IMG/VR virus record: IMGVR_UViG_3300030399_000039
Location: 1-40,967 of that record
Source of the DNA: a virus
Direction: 5' to 3' (one strand)
DNA length: 40,967 bases
The notes below the pieces were generated by a model that worked only from the letters and a program-made list of their open reading frames with translations, had not been told where the DNA came from and made no database searches. The translations under genes were made by a program, and so were the position numbers. This document shows, in pieces, positions 4,035 to 17,421 of this stretch (position 1 is the first letter of the stretch; each line of letters begins with the position of its first letter).

Positions 4035-4164
4035 TACGCTTATTCCTGTAACAAAAATAGCAAATCCATTCTCCGCGGCTTCCCATAATTTGATGTTGCC
4101 ACGCTATAAAACGCCACCTATGAAAACCTAAGGAACACTTAAGTTTAGCCACCCACTTTTTCAT
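4021..4164 (-). CDS. DUF1660-like Cys/His mini-protein (47 aa), copy 2
   Basis: This short gene begins at ATG 4164 with AGGGA upstream, 10 bases after the previous stop. The protein opens MKKWVAKLKCSLGFHRW and ends with CYFC, giving a C-x4-H plus C-x2-C set that could bind one zinc ion. It is a clear paralogue of the next upstream gene (MKSLLGKIKCSLGFH); the two share a 23-base identical DNA tract (4113-4135 and 4311-4333). The pattern recalls the short prophage zinc-binding family DUF1660. Function unknown. Confidence 0.7.
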   Translation of the reverse strand: MKKWVAKLKCSLGFHRWRFIAWQHQIMGSRGEWICYFCYRNKRNVTR

Positions 4165-10613: not shown

Positions 10614-10642
10614 TTTACATACAACTAAAACGGAAGTATAGT
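10614..10642 (+). promoter_or_regulatory. Early rightward promoter with conserved spacer
   Basis: TTTACA (-35), a 17-bp spacer and TATAGT (-10), driving the RecT-like gene. The spacer agrees at 12 of 17 positions with the spacer of the promoter at 25649-25677. The core TAAAACGGAAGTAT also recurs on the minus strand before the fibre operon. This suggests a shared regulator, perhaps the adjacent HTH protein. Confidence 0.65.
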
Positions 10643-10680: not shown

Positions 10681-11556
10681 ATGACAGCTTTAACGGTTTC
10701 TCAAGATTTACCTTCTTTTCCTATGCCAACTACATGGGCAGAATATAAAGAGTATGCGCAAATAATTTGCAAAAGTTCTTTTTGCCCCGCTAATTTTAAA
10801 GGAAATTGGGAAAATGTATTACTAGCCATGCAATTCGGCAAGGAACTGGGTTTACAGCCTCTACAAGCCCTGCAAAATATAGCAGTGATTGGTAGTAGAC
10901 CTACTCTGTGGGGAGATGCTGTCATGGCTTTAATTCGGTGCCATCCAGAATTTGAAGATATTGAAGAAAAAATTGAAGGAGAAGGAGAAGCCTTAACTGC
11001 TTATTGTACTATCACTAGACGTGGCCAAACGCCGGTTATAGGAAAGTTTAGTAGAGCAGACGCAAGACAAGCTGGATTATTGACAAAAGATATTTGGATT
11101 AAATACGAAAAACCAATGCTAAAAAATAGAGCTAGAGGATTTGCGGCTAGAGATGGCTGGCAAGATGTCCTCAAAGGTTTGTGGGTACGCGAAGAAGCTG
11201 AAGATATCCCTGAAGAAAAAGAAGTTAAAAATAATTCTAAAAAAATTAATAATCCTATAGAAGGAACAATTTATACTATCCCAGAAGAAGAATGGGATAA
11301 ATTAGTGGATAGTAGTGCTTATGGTACCACCGCTTTAAAGATTGCTTGGGAAGCTTTACCTCATAATGCAAAACAATATATAGCAACTAATCGAAAAGAA
11401 GAATGGAAAACTTTAAAAGTAGTCGCCGCTAAAAATGATGAAGCAGAGATACTAGTAAATTCTGAGAATGAGGTTGAAAAAGATTTAGCCGAACATTCAG
11501 AATGGTTACAAGAAAATGAAGGTGAAGAAGCTGAAGAAGGTGAAAATGTGCAGTAG
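10681..11556 (+). CDS. RecT-like single-strand annealing recombinase
   Basis: The 291-residue protein follows a pattern common in phage RecT-type annealing proteins. It has NVLLAMQFGKELGLQPLQAL, then VIGSRPTLWGDAVMALI, a CTITRRGQTPVIGKFSRADA segment, and LKNRARGFAARDGWQDVLKG. Such proteins bind single-stranded DNA and anneal complementary strands during phage recombination and concatemer formation. The C-terminal third is acidic (ends EENEGEEAEEGENVQ), as in several annealing and SSB-like proteins. An AAAGGAGA SD precedes the ATG. It is the first gene of the right operon. No adjacent exonuclease is obvious; the VRR-NUC protein at 19.6 kb is the only other DNA-processing nuclease. Confidence 0.68.
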   Translation: MTALTVSQDLPSFPMPTTWAEYKEYAQIICKSSFCPANFKGNWENVLLAMQFGKELGLQPLQALQNIAVIGSRPTLWGDAVMALIRCHPEFEDIEEKIEGEGEALTAYCTITRRGQTPVIGKFSRADARQAGLLTKDIWIKYEKPMLKNRARGFAARDGWQDVLKGLWVREEAEDIPEEKEVKNNSKKINNPIEGTIYTIPEEEWDKLVDSSAYGTTALKIAWEALPHNAKQYIATNRKEEWKTLKVVAAKNDEAEILVNSENEVEKDLAEHSEWLQENEGEEAEEGENVQ

Positions 11557-11558
11557 TG

Positions 11559-11576
11559 AACGGTAGGCATACCGTT
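11559..11576 (+). terminator. Hairpin after the RecT-like gene (weak terminator)
   Basis: AACGGTA-GGCA-TACCGTT is a perfect 7-bp stem just after the stop codon, followed by only a partial U tract (TATTTCT). It could attenuate or stabilise the transcript. Confidence 0.45.
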
Positions 11577-11593
11577 TATTTCTCCTGACCTTT

Positions 11594-11620
11594 GACAGTT
11601 TAGGTGCACAAAAAACTGTC
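11594..11620 (+). ncRNA. Hairpin related to the 60-nt RNA repeats
   Basis: GACAGTTT (11594-11601) pairs with AAACTGTC (11613-11620). The loop starts AGGTG and ends AAA, resembling the CAGTTTA(A/G)CGTG...AAACTG hairpins at 15.13-15.28 kb on the same strand. No good promoter or U-rich terminator is attached, so it is probably an element in the mRNA between two genes. Confidence 0.45.
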
Positions 11621-11652
11621 ATTAATTATTAAGCATATCAAGAGAAAATTAA

Positions 11653-12021
11653 ATGGAAGTTTTAGAAACCTTACAAAAAAATTGGAGTCTTCCTAAATCG
11701 GCTCCTACAAAAAGTAAACTACCGCCGGAAGCGTTAGAAGCTTTAGCTGAGCAAATTGCGGCTATGAGATTGCAAAATAAGTTTATTAATTTGTTTTATC
11801 AGGGAAAAATAACATTAAGTTCAATCCCTAAAATGGGTAAAATAGCTAAAAGAAATATGCTTGAAGAGATGATAGATCATAATAAAAATTCTATGGATAA
11901 TTTGATTGATAAATTTACTTCTGAAGACTTTGATGAGACTCAAACTTGGCTTATGCAATTTACTTTGAAAAATTTAAAAGAAACTAATGAATGGCTTAAA
12001 CAGTGTATAAAGGAAATGTAG
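11653..12021 (+). CDS. Hypothetical early protein (122 aa)
   Basis: Function not recognised. It is an all-helical soluble protein (PPEALEALAEQIAAMRLQNK, LMQFTLKNLKETNEWLKQCI). AGAG lies upstream of the ATG. It sits between the recombinase and the RNA ligase, with its stop 2 bases from the ligase ATG, so the two are likely co-translated. Confidence 0.68.
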   Translation: MEVLETLQKNWSLPKSAPTKSKLPPEALEALAEQIAAMRLQNKFINLFYQGKITLSSIPKMGKIAKRNMLEEMIDHNKNSMDNLIDKFTSEDFDETQTWLMQFTLKNLKETNEWLKQCIKEM

Positions 12022-12023
12022 AA

Positions 12024-13034
12024 ATGAGTGAATTTAAATCATTTGGAAAAATACCTGCATTGGAAAACTCCCCTTTGAGAGTTAGAATTACTCAAAAAAT
12101 TCATGGGACTAATGCGCAAATTTATATTTATCCTCAAGAAACTTACACTGGGGAAGAAGCTTTTGGCATTAAAGCTGGTTCACGTTCACGCTGGTTAACA
12201 GCAGAAGATGACAATCATGGGTTTGCAAAATGGGTTGATGAGCACCATGAATTTTTAATAAAATTTCTTGGCCCCGGAAGACATTATGGTGAATGGGCAG
12301 GTAAAGGAATTAATAGAGGGGAAGGTTTAGATAGGAAGAGGTTTTTTTTATTTGATGAAGAAAGATTTAGAAAGAATTTAACTCGACTAGATAATGCAGA
12401 TGAAATTATGAGTGTATTCCTTGAACTTGGAATTTCTAGCGTCCCTGTTTTGGTAGACATGGAATTTATTAAATTCTCTACCGAAAATTTGATGACTTTT
12501 GATACTGTTTTGGACAGATTAAAAGAGATGGGATCTTTAATAAAAGAAGGCTATATGTTTCCTGAAGGGATAGTAATTGAAATTTATGATGCAAAAAGAG
12601 TTAATCCATCAATATTCTTGAAAAAAACTTTCGATAAAGAAGACGTAGCTTGGGAAGGTAAGAAAGAAAAAGTACCCGGAAAGCCTTTAGTGGATGTTAG
12701 TCATTTACTTCAACCAGGACGTTTACAAAATATTCTAAGTCGCGAAGAGCGATATACTAGAGATTATCCTAATACTTTAGGAGAGATAGCTAACTTGTAT
12801 TTAGAGGATTTATATGCGGAAGGATTTTTATGTGGGAATGATGAAGAATTTAGAGCAAAAATGGTAAATGATATTCGCACAATAGTAGGAACACTTAAAG
12901 AAATTAAACGCTCACTAGGTAAAAATCTGTATAGATTTATTAGAAGTCAAATGGAACATGAGTTTGATGAGAAAGAGCTTGGAGTAGTCGAGGATTCCTC
13001 GGTAACTGAAAGAGGAGCAATAAAGAATGTCTGA
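12024..13034 (+). CDS. RNA ligase (Rnl2-type nucleotidyltransferase)
   Basis: The 336-residue protein has the covalent nucleotidyl-transfer motif KIHGTN at residues 25-30 (K25 would carry the AMP). Other nucleotidyltransferase motifs follow: an arginine-containing SRSRWL, GEWAGKGI (motif III type), EGIVIEIYD (motif IV type) and LKKTF (motif V type). The C-terminal 100 residues are helical. Such ligases seal nicked RNA, often tRNAs cut by host anticodon nucleases; no polynucleotide kinase is seen here, so it would depend on substrates with 5' phosphate. ATG 12024 (MSEFKSFG) is used because AAGGA precedes it. Confidence 0.82.
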   Translation: MSEFKSFGKIPALENSPLRVRITQKIHGTNAQIYIYPQETYTGEEAFGIKAGSRSRWLTAEDDNHGFAKWVDEHHEFLIKFLGPGRHYGEWAGKGINRGEGLDRKRFFLFDEERFRKNLTRLDNADEIMSVFLELGISSVPVLVDMEFIKFSTENLMTFDTVLDRLKEMGSLIKEGYMFPEGIVIEIYDAKRVNPSIFLKKTFDKEDVAWEGKKEKVPGKPLVDVSHLLQPGRLQNILSREERYTRDYPNTLGEIANLYLEDLYAEGFLCGNDEEFRAKMVNDIRTIVGTLKEIKRSLGKNLYRFIRSQMEHEFDEKELGVVEDSSVTERGAIKNV

Positions 13035-13539
13035 TAACGTAAACCATCCTCCACATTATCAGGATTTAACGAATTGCGATCATTGCAAAAATCCAATTGA
13101 ATGTATCAATATTTCTCGTAACTTTAATTTTAATTTGGGCAATGTGATTAAATATATTTGGCGAGCTGACAAAAAAGATAATAGGTTAGAACAATTACAG
13201 AAAGCCCAATGGTATTTAGAAGATGAAATTAAAAAATATTTTCCTCTGCCAATTTCTTCAAAACTCACAACGAGTGAAGTAGAAAGTCTAGAAGAAGAGG
13301 ATATTGATTCAGGTGCTTTTTTACCATTAGGTCATGAAATATATTTCAGGAACTGCAAGCAATGTTCTCTTTCTCCGGTTTGTCGTAAGACTAATAAGGA
13401 AACTAATAGTTGGAGTGTGTTACTGTGCAAGTGTTATTTCCCATTGGATATGGATAAGGAGTGTGTCACTCATTGGTTTAACTCATCCAGATTACAGTAT
13501 CTTGAAAAAAAATGGGATGAAATTAATGTCGGGTACTAA
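13027..13539 (+). CDS. DUF3310 domain fused to a Lar-like zinc ribbon
   Basis: Residues 1-77 fit the phage DUF3310 domain: NVNHPPHYQ, IECINI, LGNVIKYIWRADKK and a LEQLQKAQWYLEDEI helix. Residues about 105-165 contain CKQCSLSP, CKCYF and a THWF segment, the Cys2-Cys2 pattern of the Lar-like genes on the opposite strand and of the gene two steps downstream. An extra CDHC pair is inserted near residue 18. DUF3310 proteins are widespread in phages but their reaction is not established. The fusion appears genuine, since the frame is unbroken and the start overlaps the ligase stop by 8 bases with GGAG upstream. Confidence 0.78.
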   Translation: MSDNVNHPPHYQDLTNCDHCKNPIECINISRNFNFNLGNVIKYIWRADKKDNRLEQLQKAQWYLEDEIKKYFPLPISSKLTTSEVESLEEEDIDSGAFLPLGHEIYFRNCKQCSLSPVCRKTNKETNSWSVLLCKCYFPLDMDKECVTHWFNSSRLQYLEKKWDEINVGY

Positions 13540-13648
13540 ATATGAAAACATCTATGAAGACATCATAGTGCTTATTATTTCTTTATCAGTAATTCTTGGG
13601 GGAATTGTAAGTTTTTTATCTGAGGCATTAAAATGGGTGATAATATAA
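13526..13648 (+). CDS. Small single-membrane-span protein (40 aa)
   Basis: The short frame MSGTKYENIYEDIIVLIISL... has a hydrophobic run (IIVLIISLSVILGGIVSFL) long enough to cross a membrane. It starts inside the end of the fusion gene and ends 16 bases into the next micro-gene, typical translational coupling. A start nine bases upstream is also possible. Function unknown. Confidence 0.6.
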   Translation: MSGTKYENIYEDIIVLIISLSVILGGIVSFLSEALKWVII

Positions 13649-13746
13649 AAGAACAAATATTTTATACCATTCTGATTGTCTATATTATTTGTGGATTAGG
13701 GGTAATAGGGTTGGTGTTAAAGTTTTTATGGGATTGTCTTAAATGA
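13633..13746 (+). CDS. Small single-membrane-span protein (37 aa)
   Basis: ATG 13633 has GAGG 8 bases upstream. The product has a polar start (MGDNIKEQ) and one hydrophobic span (TILIVYIICGLGVIGLVL). Its TGA overlaps the next ATG (ATGA). With the preceding gene it forms an overlapping pair of tiny membrane proteins. They are far from the lysis genes, so a spanin role is unlikely. Confidence 0.6.
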   Translation: MGDNIKEQIFYTILIVYIICGLGVIGLVLKFLWDCLK

Positions 13747-14003
13747 GCTCAGATCTGTGCAAAGTATGTGGGTTTCAGCCAACTATGAGAAAAGAACCCA
13801 GGGATTCCTGGGTGAATCTAAATCTAAGAAAATATAGATTACGGATGCAATGTGGATGTAAAAGTAAAGATTTATTTATTGATATTAATTCCCCTAATGA
13901 GTACTCCCAAGAATATAAAAAATTATGGGAAGCGTGGATTAGAAGAGAAGAAGATTATGCACTAGCTAGTGAATATGAGATAAGATTGGAGATATTAAAA
14001 TGA
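13743..14003 (+). CDS. Lar-like zinc-ribbon protein, right-arm member
   Basis: The 86-residue protein has CKVCGFQP, CGCK and LWEAWIRRE, matching the CxxCxxxP / CxC / W pattern of the left-arm family and of the C-terminus of the nearby DUF3310 fusion. The W-N becomes A-W-I, slightly degenerate. It overlaps both neighbours by 4 bases. Counter-restriction is inferred from Lar, not shown. Confidence 0.7.
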   Translation: MSSDLCKVCGFQPTMRKEPRDSWVNLNLRKYRLRMQCGCKSKDLFIDINSPNEYSQEYKKLWEAWIRREEDYALASEYEIRLEILK

Positions 14004-14455
14004 TCCCTAAATTCAGATGTTATTTGCATAATCTTGAAGGATTAAATGTCCCATATTTTGAAGGTATAGGACGTATGTTTGATGTTGAAAAAATAGACTT
14101 TGGATTTCAAGGAGGAGAAGAGACATGGGTATTTTATAGATGTCCTTCTGAATGTGAATCACCTTTAAAGGATGTGCATTTAATGCAATGGACTGGATTA
14201 AAAGATAAAAACGGAAAGGATATTTATGAAGGGGATATTGTAAAAGATTTAGGCGTGTCCCATTTGAATAGTGTTAATTGTGATGCTCCCCCTGTTGAGC
14301 AAATAAAATGGGAAGGGTCAGGATTTAAAATAACGCGAGGCACCAGTACGTTGGCCTTTGAAATGGAAGAAATATATTATCCCGAATATTATTTAGAAGT
14401 CATAGGAAATATTTATGAAAATCCTGAATTATTGGAGGTAAAAAATGATAACTGA
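14000..14455 (+). CDS. YopX family protein
   Basis: The 151-residue protein ends with the YopX signature: LMQWTGLKDKNGKDIYEGDI, a variable beta region, then EVIGNIYENPELL. KFRCYLHN near the N-terminus fits the family's usual K-F-R-x-W start. YopX proteins are common small phage proteins of unknown biochemical role. It starts within the last codon of the Lar-like gene and overlaps the next start by 11 bases. Confidence 0.85.
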   Translation: MIPKFRCYLHNLEGLNVPYFEGIGRMFDVEKIDFGFQGGEETWVFYRCPSECESPLKDVHLMQWTGLKDKNGKDIYEGDIVKDLGVSHLNSVNCDAPPVEQIKWEGSGFKITRGTSTLAFEMEEIYYPEYYLEVIGNIYENPELLEVKNDN

Positions 14456-14669
14456 ACGAGTCAATATCAAAGATATAAAACCAGAAATATGTAGCATACT
14501 TCATGTCCATAAACATTATTCTCCTACCGAGAGCAGAATTATGTTATATGCTGGTAATCAATTTGGAAAAAAATATAAATTATTGATTGATACTTTTTGT
14601 CCGCATGATCTACTCGATAAAATAGCAGATAGTTATATATCAGTGAATGTTAAGAATTATTTAAGTTGA
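14445..14669 (+). CDS. Hypothetical early protein (74 aa)
   Basis: Function not recognised. It is a small mixed alpha/beta soluble protein (RIMLYAGNQFGKKYKLLID). It has a TTGGAGG SD inside the YopX gene and is followed directly by a terminator-like hairpin, so it may be the last gene of this transcript. Confidence 0.65.
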   Translation: MITERVNIKDIKPEICSILHVHKHYSPTESRIMLYAGNQFGKKYKLLIDTFCPHDLLDKIADSYISVNVKNYLS

Positions 14670-14675
14670 ATTGCC

Positions 14676-14716
14676 AAGGTGTTTTTAACCGAATATCAGC
14701 GGTTTTTTTCCACCTT
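14676..14716 (+). terminator. Rho-independent terminator
   Basis: Inner stem AACCG (14687-14691) pairs with CGGTT (14700-14704), running into a seven-T tract (14703-14709). An outer AAGGTG/CACCTT pair (14676-14681 and 14711-14716) could extend the structure. It lies 20 bases after a stop codon and before a new SD-led gene. Confidence 0.65.
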
Positions 14717-14778
14717 CATAGCTGAATTTGTGGGTAAGACAGTGGCAAGAATTTAACCCTCATTAATAGGAGAGAAAA

Positions 14779-15111
14779 ATGTTTAAAAGAATTTTAGTGC
14801 TTTACACCCATGAATTAGATCGAAATTTATATATCATTGGCGAAAGACTTTCTAATCCAAACGCCATGGTACAAAAGTTACATGATCCATGGCCTATAGT
14901 AATAAATATAAACGAAATTCTCTGGGTAAAACCTCACTCTAATCATACGGGATGGTTTGTTATTTCCTTCAGAGGCTTCGTACATACTAATTGGCAATTA
15001 TTAAAGGACTTGCTCGCTATTGAATGTACCTGGGAAGAATTGCAGGATTTATTAGTTCCAAAGGGTACCTTCATTGGTTCTCCTCAAGATTTTGGGTATG
15101 GTCAAGGTTGA
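14779..15111 (+). CDS. Hypothetical protein (110 aa)
   Basis: Function not recognised. It has beta-rich stretches (RILVLYTHELDRNLYIIGE, GWFVISFRGFVHTNW) and an acidic C-terminal helix with WEELQDLL. It has a TAGGAG SD. It lies between the terminator at 14.7 kb and the structured RNA region, so it may have its own promoter, which I could not identify. Confidence 0.68.
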   Translation: MFKRILVLYTHELDRNLYIIGERLSNPNAMVQKLHDPWPIVININEILWVKPHSNHTGWFVISFRGFVHTNWQLLKDLLAIECTWEELQDLLVPKGTFIGSPQDFGYGQG

Positions 15112-15130
15112 ATACCTAAGACACGGTTAT

Positions 15131-15302
15131 ACAGTTTAACGTGGGCCGTTTTAAACTGAGGTCGAGGAATAACTTCCTGTTTGCGTATTTACAGTTTAGC
15201 GTGACCGAAAAACTGAAGCCAGGGGAGTTAGAACCCCATGTGCGCATTTAGGGTTTTAGCGTGGCTGAAAAAACCCAGTGCAAGGTTTAAAACTCCTATA
15301 CA
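15131..15302 (+). ncRNA. Three tandem 60-nt structured RNA units
   Basis: Three imperfect copies with an exact 60-base period start at 15131, 15191 and 15251. Each has hairpin A, with a 6-7 bp stem (CAGTTT/AAACTG in units 1 and 2, GGGTTTT/AAAACCC in unit 3) and a loop opening A(A/G)CGTG followed by a G/C-rich step. Hairpin B follows (AGGAA/TTCCT in unit 1, GGGG/CCCC in unit 2, AGG/CCT in unit 3). Sequences between units are also similar (TTGCGTATTTA and TGCGCATTTA). Arm sequences differ while pairing is kept, which indicates selected RNA structure. No frame is open across the units. A terminator follows at 15310-15339. Not matched to a known RNA family by eye. Confidence 0.65.
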
Positions 15303-15309
15303 CTCGTCT

Positions 15310-15339
15310 GGCTGTACGAGGCACACTACAGCCTTTTTT
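15310..15339 (+). terminator. Rho-independent terminator after the RNA repeats
   Basis: GGCTGTA (15310-15316) pairs with TACAGCC (15327-15333), followed by six Ts. It would end the transcript carrying the three 60-nt units, making a short RNA of about 200 bases or an attenuated leader. Confidence 0.75.
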
Positions 15340-15408
15340 GGAGGCAAGCTGGGGTGTAATGTGTCATTAAGAATAGCAATATTCCCAAGGGGGCGTGAAC
15401 CTAGTAAG

Positions 15409-15497
15409 CCTCCTCCATTGGAGGGAGGAAATTATTTTTGTAGTTACTTGTCCTTTCTGCAGAAATAATATTCGACTATGCAAATCGGACTCCCTCC
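15409..15497 (+). promoter_or_regulatory. Two mutually exclusive hairpins before the duplicated small gene
   Basis: CCTCCTCC (15409-15416) can pair with GGAGGGAGG (15420-15428), followed by AAATTATTTTTG, a terminator-like form. The same GGAGGGAG (15420-15427) is perfectly complementary to CTCCCTCC (15490-15497), just before the next gene's SD (15510-15515). The arrangement resembles an attenuator or riboswitch expression platform. No ligand domain is proved; the 60-nt units lie upstream beyond another terminator. Confidence 0.45.
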
Positions 15498-15521
15498 ACC
15501 ATTTATTATGAGGTGAATCTT

Positions 15522-15785
15522 ATGTCATTATATTTAGACATTCTTACGAAGTTTATTAATACTCGTATTAGTGAAGTTAATATAAATGACTACGGAACCA
15601 TCGTTTATGAGGTAAATTTTATGTCAGTATATTTAGACACTCTTACGCAGTTTATTAATACGCGTATTAAAGAAGTTAAAGAAGTAGCCGAATCAGGAAG
15701 CGATTCAGCGATTAAGGCTTATGAGGATGTATTAGATCATATCAAGCAGATTGGTGATGATCCAAAAGAGAATACCACCGAGTAA
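15522..15785 (+). CDS. Small protein with internal duplication including its ribosome site
   Basis: The frame from ATG 15522 gives 87 residues in which MSLYLDILTKFINTRISEV recurs as MSVYLDTLTQFINTRIKEV 33 residues later. The DNA upstream of both ATGs is duplicated too (TTATGAGGTGAATCTTATG and TTATGAGGTAAATTTTATG), so an independent 54-residue product can start at 15621. The C-terminal tail is unique (YEDVLDHIKQIGDD). Function unknown. Either the long form is an accidental in-frame fusion of two gene copies, or both forms are made. Confidence 0.7.
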   Translation: MSLYLDILTKFINTRISEVNINDYGTIVYEVNFMSVYLDTLTQFINTRIKEVKEVAESGSDSAIKAYEDVLDHIKQIGDDPKENTTE

Positions 15786-15807
15786 TGATCGGTATAGCTG
15801 GAGTTTT

Positions 15808-15866
15808 CTAGTTTAACCAGGGTATAGATATAACTAGATCCTAATTCCATCGAATTCGAGGGAATT
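15808..15866 (+). ncRNA. Two-hairpin element resembling the 60-nt RNA units
   Basis: CTAGTT (15808-15813) pairs with AACTAG (15832-15837) around a loop starting TAACCAGG. AATTCC (15843-15848) pairs with GGAATT (15861-15866). The order (hairpin A containing AGTTTAAC, then hairpin B) parallels the units at 15131-15302, but there is no clear primary-sequence match beyond AGTTTAAC. It lies in the 107-base gap before an SD-led gene. Confidence 0.4.
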
Positions 15867-15892
15867 AAAAATATACAAAAAAGGAGGCAAAA

Positions 15893-16177
15893 ATGAAGAA
15901 AGAACATTATGCTGCATTAAATTTTGAGAAAGAATTTTTAACTCTTAGTGGTCATCAATTTAAGATAATCGCTTTCATTACAGCCGACCTTTTTAATCTG
16001 TTTTTTGGAACGCTGCCACCTTCCACGCAAAAACATTTTACTGACTATATTGAAAATCGTCTTGAAATTCTTTCAAAGGGTGGGTTATCCATGAGAGCAG
16101 AGAAAGATATCCAAGAAGGATATGAGTTGCTCCTTAAAAAACTTACTAATTTTATGGATAAGGCCAAAAATGATTAA
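15893..16177 (+). CDS. Hypothetical early protein (94 aa)
   Basis: Function not recognised. It is helical with a hydrophobic centre (HQFKIIAFITADLFNLFFGT) that may be a buried helix. An excellent AAAGGAGG SD precedes ATG 15893. Its last codons (ATGATTAA) overlap the start of the first MIKL-family gene, and it ends KND* like that family's KEEND*, but it lacks the family's motifs. Confidence 0.7.
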   Translation: MKKEHYAALNFEKEFLTLSGHQFKIIAFITADLFNLFFGTLPPSTQKHFTDYIENRLEILSKGGLSMRAEKDIQEGYELLLKKLTNFMDKAKND

Positions 16178-16418
16178 ATTAATTGTACATCACGAAGTTT
16201 TCACTTACAGGAAGTCTAGTAAAATACCAAGAAAGCAATCTTGGACAGTTCAATTCGTTCCTACCTTTCCCAACTTTAGTTCATCACTTTTTGAACATGT
16301 TTCTATAGGATTCCCTAAGATAGAAGATTTAAAATTATATCTAAAATATTTTACACAGGGCGCTAATATATGTGGACAAAATGTAGAAGTTGAAATGAGG
16401 GAAATATCAAATGATTAA
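16170..16418 (+). CDS. MIKL-family paralogue 1
   Basis: The 82-residue protein starts MIKLIVHHEV, has QSWTVQFVP in the middle, and a C-terminal helix-strand IEDLKLYLKYFTQGANICGQ followed by VEVEMRE. The same plan recurs in the next four genes. It overlaps the gene before and the gene after by the same octamer ATGATTAA (stop TAA in one frame, ATG-ATT-AA in the other). No known domain is recognised. A small beta-sheet plus helix fold is plausible. Confidence 0.7.
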   Translation: MIKLIVHHEVFTYRKSSKIPRKQSWTVQFVPTFPNFSSSLFEHVSIGFPKIEDLKLYLKYFTQGANICGQNVEVEMREISND

Positions 16419-16635
16419 ATTAAGGGTTATTCATAAAGTTATTAGACACTCTAATTTCAATAGGCATTCATGGTCAGTAGAACGTAAAGAATCAAATCCT
16501 ATGATCTTCTATTCGTTATTAGAATTAGACTTATATATACTAGCTTTTCGAACTGGAGCTTTCGCAGCGGGCGAGCGGAATGTTGAAATTAATAAAATAA
16601 TGGAAGAAGAAATAGTAGGGAGCATTGATGATTAA
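16411..16635 (+). CDS. MIKL-family paralogue 2
   Basis: The 74-residue protein reads MIKLRVIHKVI, HSWSVERKE, LLELDLYILAFRTGAFAAGE and NVEINKI. It has a GAGGGAAA SD. Both ends overlap neighbours by ATGATTAA. The GAxAxGE step after the conserved helix aligns with paralogues 1 and 4 (GANICGQ, GANACGE). Function unknown. Confidence 0.72.
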   Translation: MIKLRVIHKVIRHSNFNRHSWSVERKESNPMIFYSLLELDLYILAFRTGAFAAGERNVEINKIMEEEIVGSIDD

Positions 16636-16879
16636 ATTAACAGTCATAAAATCTAATAGAAATCCTAAATGTTCAAATTTAGATACTCATCCTCATAAAT
16701 GGGAATTTACCGTACAACATGAAAATAAAAGATGGTCTGAGGGTTTAATAGAACTATACCAAGAAAAAGAAGCAGAGTTATATTTAGAAGGATTTCATTC
16801 CGGCTGGGAACAATCGAAAAAAGCCGAAAAGTATGAAATGATATTTATCGATCAAACACAAAAGGAAGAAAATGATTAA
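16628..16879 (+). CDS. MIKL-family paralogue 3
   Basis: The 83-residue protein reads MIKLTVIKSN, HKWEFTVQHE, EAELYLEGFHSGWEQSKKAE. It keeps the N-terminal strand, the K-W strand and the E-L-Y-L helix but replaces the GAxAxGE turn by a charged helix, like the left-arm member at 8078-8353 (HGWEAAKKF). AGGGAG precedes the ATG. Confidence 0.72.
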   Translation: MIKLTVIKSNRNPKCSNLDTHPHKWEFTVQHENKRWSEGLIELYQEKEAELYLEGFHSGWEQSKKAEKYEMIFIDQTQKEEND

Positions 16880-17168
16880 ATTAAAAGTAACTAAATTTTT
16901 AGACGGAAGTACTAGCTGCAGAAACATCGAAGATTCGAAAAGACTTTGTTGGCAAGTAGAAAAGATACATGCCCCACACAAAGAAAAGGACGATAAGTAT
17001 TACCTTAGTGATATTCTTATGAATTTCTATGCCCTCCCAGAATTAGAATTATATCTTTCAGCTTTTGAAGCAGGTGCAAATGCGTGCGGAGAATTTGTTG
17101 TAATTGAAAGAACTGAGATAGTTGAAGAAACGATATTTCCAGAAGAGGATGAAGATGAACAAGATTAA
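16872..17168 (+). CDS. MIKL-family paralogue 4
   Basis: The 98-residue protein reads MIKLKVTKFL, LCWQVEKIH, PELELYLSAFEAGANACGEF and VVIERTE, with a long acidic tail (FPEEDEDEQD). AGGAAG lies before the ATG inside the previous gene. The tail overlaps the next gene by 14 bases. Confidence 0.72.
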   Translation: MIKLKVTKFLDGSTSCRNIEDSKRLCWQVEKIHAPHKEKDDKYYLSDILMNFYALPELELYLSAFEAGANACGEFVVIERTEIVEETIFPEEDEDEQD

Positions 17169-17421
17169 ACTCACTGTTATAGAAAATCCTTTTACAACTA
17201 AGTGGTATATAATAGCAGAAAATAATGGGGTTAAAGTTTATGATATGGATAACCCTATGGCTATTCTAACAAGTCTTGAAACTTTAGAGATTTTTCTAGC
17301 CGGATTTAAACACTCTTCCTATATATCAGGCGACGAATTAGAAATTGAATGTAAGAACTCAGAAGGTGAAGTAGTTGAAAGCTATCTCACATTTACTTCT
17401 TCAAATTTTCGTCACGCGTAA
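17155..17421 (+). CDS. MIKL-family paralogue 5
   Basis: The 88-residue protein reads MNKIKLTVIENP, TKWYIIAENNG, LETLEIFLAGFKHSSYISGD and ELEIECKN. It is the last gene of the right arm. Its final 29 bases overlap the end of the convergent holin gene, with no room for a separate terminator. It is the most divergent member at the N-terminus (two extra residues). Confidence 0.7.
   Translation: MNKIKLTVIENPFTTKWYIIAENNGVKVYDMDNPMAILTSLETLEIFLAGFKHSSYISGDELEIECKNSEGEVVESYLTFTSSNFRHA

Follow-up and report, generated by a model that had tools for sequence, protein, structure and literature searches.

A short hairpin that we term P2 occurs in four related copies in the middle operon of an IMG/VR virus record of 40,967 bases (the window, analysed along its whole length). 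Three copies form a tandem array with an exact 60-nt period, and the fourth precedes a different gene. All four are on the same transcribed strand and outside genes, and pairing is kept where the arm sequences change. We tentatively favour the reading that P2 is a cis-acting site for an RNA-binding protein.

Four copies of one hairpin in a phage operon

The head genes of the phage (terminase, portal, scaffold, coat and head closure) resemble those of P22-type podoviruses, and its terminase is ~42% identical to those of Vibrio and Pseudoalteromonas phages. No phage record matched the first 25 kb of DNA at megablast level. The + strand middle operon (10681-17421) encodes a RecT-like protein, an RNA ligase, a DUF3310 protein and a YopX protein. 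The array lies inside it, in its largest intergenic gap (15112-15521, 410 nt, in the gene set that we picked), and begins ~20 nt past the stop codon of a 110-aa ORF, of which it would form the 3′ UTR. AlphaFold modelled the 110-aa protein alone with a pLDDT of 50. A promoter-like site is located ahead of the operon at 10614-10642, and none was found just 5′ of 15131. The relevant features are as follows.

11593..11621, + strand: fourth P2 copy, 9 bp with an 11-nt loop (TGACAGTTT-AGGTGCACAAA-AAACTGTCA, loop AGGTGCACAAA)
14779..15111, + strand: 110-aa ORF just 5′ of the array
15128..15187, + strand: unit 1, with P2 at 15132-15158 (8 bp, 11-nt loop) and P3 at 15165-15178 (AGGAA-TAAC-TTCCT, 5 bp)
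15188..15247, + strand: unit 2, with P2 at 15192-15215 (6 bp, 12-nt loop) and P3 at 15222-15237 (GGGG/CCCC, 4 bp)
15248..15307, + strand: unit 3, with P2 at 15251-15276 (7 bp, 12-nt loop, two compensatory pairs) and a weak P3 (~3 bp)
15310..15339, + strand: terminator-like hairpin, GGCTGTA-N10-TACAGCC-TTTTTT (7 bp, 10-nt loop, T6)
15340..15417, + strand: long hairpin, GGAGGC-AA-GCTGGG..CCTAGT-AA-GCCTCC then TCCA (z -3.1)
15419..15501, + strand: three-way-junction RNA of 83 nt, with a 9-bp closing stem, arms of 13 bp and 5 bp and a 3′ CCA (z -5.2)

The three units share TTTA[AG]CGTG cores at 15135, 15195 and 15255, spaced by exactly 60 nt, which confirms both the period and the conserved A(A/G)CGTG loop described in an earlier note on this DNA. 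The alignment scores of unit 1 with unit 2 and of unit 2 with unit 3 were reached by 1/1000 and 2/1000 shuffles, respectively, and a 21-nt consensus drawn from these same units gave 2 matches at ≤3 mismatches against 0 expected. P2 is CAGTTTAA-N11-TTAAACTG in unit 1, CAGTTT-N12-AAACTG in unit 2 and GGGTTTT-N12-AAAACCC in unit 3. Relative to units 1 and 2, unit 3 carries two full pair swaps in P2 (C-G to G-C and A-T to G-C) with pairing kept, so the compensatory arm changes that had been claimed are real. Paired swaps are also seen between the P3 stems of unit 1 (AGGAA/TTCCT) and unit 2 (GGGG/CCCC). The common two-hairpin plan proposed for the units was not confirmed in all of them: P3 dwindles from unit 1 to unit 3, which also has a competing fold. 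In unit 2 a possible 7-bp closing stem (TGCGTAT/GTGCGCA) would produce a three-way junction.

The hairpin and T6 tract of the rho-independent terminator reported after the array are present, but the description of it as clean was too strong: it is only fair, with a probability of 0.13-0.44 in context. A pattern scan misses it because its loop is 10 nt. An ORF at 15238-15468 was judged non-coding, as it lacks a ribosome site and its sequence is unlike protein. tRNA genes in the array were rejected (Rfam and ARAGORN standard mode), and forced low-threshold ARAGORN matches were not credible. At 4097 and 5909, CGTG-like sites fall within ORFs, lack such a hairpin and were dismissed as copies.

The similar hairpin suspected at 11594-11620 proved to be a true fourth copy. 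The element at 11593-11621 is the window's best match to unit 2 besides unit 2 itself, scoring 31-33 compared with best scores of 21-27 in shuffled windows for the same two queries. A second suspected copy at 15808-15866 was unrelated by alignment and by window scoring. The fourth copy sits between the RecT gene and an ORF starting at ATG 11653, within a predicted leader fold (11557-11660, z -2.9) in which its pair probability is 0.86-1.0. A predicted TTTCTC..GAGAAA helix encloses it and pairs the GAGA 5′ of ATG 11653 (11642-11645, a weak ribosome site) at a predicted ≥0.99. Across unit 1, unit 2, unit 3 and the fourth copy, the P2 loop measures 11, 12, 12 and 11 nt, compared with arms of 8, 6, 7 and 9 bp, and AGTTT is separated from AAACT by 11, 12 and 15 in the three copies in which these letters are preserved. 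In the leader (11557-11652, + strand), the loop of this copy contains a palindrome, GTGCAC, that might allow loop-loop dimerization.

Other repeats and hairpins are found in the record. An 83-nt segment is duplicated at 15498-15679 (+ strand) with a period of 99 nt; the copies are 87% alike and include the ribosome site and initial codons of ORF 15522. Five small ORFs at 16170-17418 (+ strand) look paralogous; most start MIKL-V, they show 22-33% identity to the first, and Pfam holds no family for them. Positions 1-34 form a perfect 13-bp hairpin with the loop CACGTGTC. In the gap at 14671-14757 (+ strand), a closing stem TTGCCA..TGGCAA surrounds a terminator-like hairpin AACCG..CGGTTTTTTT, with a z of only -1.6.

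Folding strength and the search for relatives

Taken as a whole, the array is no more stably folded than its shuffled versions (z -0.01 for a 238-nt region and -0.3 in a second run). Of the single units, only unit 2 folds better than its shuffles (z -2.8, compared with +0.2 for unit 1 and -0.9 for unit 3). With pairing limited to 70 nt, the unit 2 hairpins form at 0.94-0.98 in context; P2 is partial in unit 3, which has a competing fold, and has a pairing probability of <0.1 in unit 1. The fold tools used predict nested folds only. Thermodynamics supports one unit only; support for the other units is comparative and comes from few copies. The idea of structured RNA repeats is supported for P2, through its compensatory arms, constant loop and fourth copy.

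In the noncoding gaps that we tested, the RNA with the strongest fold was the element at 15419-15501, which had been overlooked in the earlier note. Its closing stem is TGGAGGGAG/CTCCCTCCA, followed by CCA. The 3′ half of the long hairpin at 15340-15417 can alternatively pair with the start of this element (CCTCCTCCATTGGAGGGAGG); each is perhaps a separate element. Both look tRNA-like in outline. Neither Rfam nor ARAGORN in standard mode reported a tRNA at 15340-15501, and there is no canonical T-loop. These downstream elements may be worth more attention than the array.

No Rfam family, ToxI included, matched the array at gathering score or to E 5. The best sub-threshold match, in the downstream region, was to an enterobacterial sRNA and scored far under its cut-off. 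Rfam holds CRISPR repeat families, and none was matched to E 5; this is a weak test of CRISPR-repeat mimicry. BLAST of the array against phages and against plasmids gave chance-size matches only. An IMG/VR pattern scan with the loop-and-arm core returned 18 stretches with no tandem copies and a few short chance stems, and a second scan gave no tandem copies and chance matches only, among the matches listed. The IMG/VR scans need exact words, and the lack of a homologue in the phage and IMG/VR searches does not amount to absence in nature. The 110-aa protein, RNA ligase, major head protein and RecT led to no useful relatives, YopX and terminase led only to distant phages that lack the remainder of the operon, and no close relative was found by any protein anchor.

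Possible roles of the repeated hairpin

It is possible that P2 is a dispersed cis-acting RNA-binding hairpin, with the single copy serving as an operator-like leader and the three 3′ UTR copies as a multivalent site or decoy; we favour this reading tentatively. The + strand middle operon would then employ P2 four times or more, in the leader of gene 11653 and, ahead of the terminator, in the 3′ UTR that follows the 110-aa gene, with one RNA-binding protein, of phage or host, binding the 11-12-nt loop and the stem. At 11593, binding might affect translation, as the flanking helix is predicted to pair the GAGA before ATG 11653. The triplicate at 15131-15276 may serve to retain or titrate the protein, or may determine 3′-end stability. 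Transcription of the copies, the binding protein, the translational effect and the titration are what we infer. We favour a cis-acting hairpin because the fourth copy lies outside the array, on the same strand and likewise between genes, because two compensatory pairs separate unit 3 from units 1 and 2, and because the leader folds better than shuffles with the fourth copy and the GAGA predicted to be paired. The promoter-like site before the operon, with none just before 15131, argues in the same direction, as does the phage precedent of the T4 gene 43 hairpin operator (PMC3014915). The reading is weakened by the failure to find a homologue, and hence true covariation, by an array no stabler than shuffles in which unit 1 P2 is hardly predicted in context, by the weakness of GAGA as a ribosome site, and by there being no identified RNA-binding protein. 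Four short copies could also be duplication debris.

That last explanation, a decaying tandem duplication with no present function, is rather unlikely. The surroundings are rich in duplications (15498-15679 and the paralogous small ORFs at 16170-17418), and units 1 and 3 fold no better than shuffles. However, pairing has been retained through changes in both arms, the fourth copy lies at a distance, and idle 200-nt stretches are rarely kept by phage genomes. We consider it similarly unlikely that the units are a transcription-control element, working through RNA polymerase or a nut-like complex by antitermination or attenuation, or serving as processing sites, and so setting read-through into the genes from 15522. 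The array is directly 5′ of a terminator within a run of + strand genes, terminator-like hairpins also occur at 11559-11580 and 14687-14710, and unit 3 has a competing fold. Nevertheless, we saw no clean mutually exclusive terminator-antiterminator pair and no similarity to HK022 putL or putR as located here, and the array is ~4.5 kb from the promoter-like site of the operon, whereas put and nut sites are found close to early promoters.

Binding of the repeats as double-stranded DNA, as replication-origin iterons or regulator operators, would explain their dyad symmetry and the conserved 18-bp core at 60-bp steps. This is improbable in view of the half-site spacing, which varies (11, 12 and 15), of arms that change in a compensatory way rather than keeping their sequence, and of the location of every copy within a single operon and on its transcribed strand, with a terminator then following. 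Because the loop is constant while arm length and the TTT/AAA half-site distance vary, an RNA hairpin is preferred to a rigid DNA dimer site. Both the iteron and the put readings rank below the cis-acting hairpin.

A trans-acting decoy or antitoxin-like RNA in the style of ToxI or pseudo-ToxI, directed against a toxin or nuclease that the host uses in defence, seems more doubtful still. Three tandem structured units ahead of a terminator, an RNA ligase gene in the same phage and the precedent of pseudo-ToxI in phage PhiTE (PMC3475682) speak for it. Against it are the strongly differing sequences of the units, the single copy elsewhere and the lack of an own promoter, in addition to the family and toxin searches and the unit length considered below. 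If released as a separate RNA, the array would be a new class of multivalent phage decoy, unrelated to ToxI or CRISPR-repeat mimics, whose target would be a defence protein of the host that binds or cuts RNA; the element at 11593 would be a single-copy relative. We regard this, too, as very doubtful. The earlier proposal of a new phage RNA, taken as a separate trans-acting transcript, finds no support: no upstream promoter was found, and the array follows a stop codon by ~20 nt in a + strand operon.

Should P2 prove to be a protein-binding site, a single phage would employ one RNA element both as a lone operator and, triplicated, as a reservoir. This arrangement is testable and might lead to a new RNA-binding protein of phage or host origin. 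A mere decaying duplication would be nothing out of the ordinary.

Comparison with known systems

With the type III antitoxin RNAs (ToxI, TenpI and CptI) and pseudo-ToxI, the array shares a tandem arrangement of structured units with an intrinsic terminator after them. However, type III antitoxins are near-identical H-type pseudoknots with units of 34-36 nt (PMC5086642), whereas the phage units are strongly diverged and 60 nt long, as the earlier note had recognized in calling the repeat longer than usual. In type III systems a toxin gene comes after the terminator; here there is none, nor an Rfam match. Pfam, PHROGs and PADLOC identified no toxin or defence family among the array neighbours, in agreement with the earlier observation that no ToxN-like toxin follows, and ORF 15522 has only a weak VakA match (E 0.0096). 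Unit length, family match and toxin therefore all count against the type III antitoxin reading, and the likeness to ToxI or pseudo-ToxI that had been drawn is not upheld. RNA anti-CRISPRs (Racrs, PMC10651486) are alike in being small phage-encoded repeat-like hairpins, but they are solitary CRISPR-repeat mimics; for the array, the weak Rfam test gave no match.

The HK022 put antiterminator RNA (structure in PMC9378689), which acts on RNA polymerase through the β′ zinc-binding domain, is similar in its length of ~60-70 nt, its two stem-loops and its place in a phage operon with terminators. The phage units differ in being tandem, far from any promoter and without sequence similarity to putL or putR: local alignments of the units to these sites, which we located as the similar pair on opposite HK022 strands and not via annotation, scored no better than shuffles.

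Phage translational operators, hairpins that sit close to a ribosome-binding site and alter translation once bound, offer a further comparison. The operator of T4 gene 43 is a hairpin ~40 nt 5′ of the start codon (PMC3014915). No DNA polymerase gene was recognized among the proteins scanned, and AATAAC in unit 1 P3, which recalls the -UAAC- loop of the T4 operator, is missing from the other units and was treated as chance. Although the phage hairpin differs from the T4 operator in being also triplicated in a 3′ UTR and in having no known binder, the copy at 11593-11621 is likewise a short hairpin 5′ of a start codon with a nearby ribosome site predicted to be paired, and it is this copy only that, through the predicted GAGA pairing, would fit the features of an operator.
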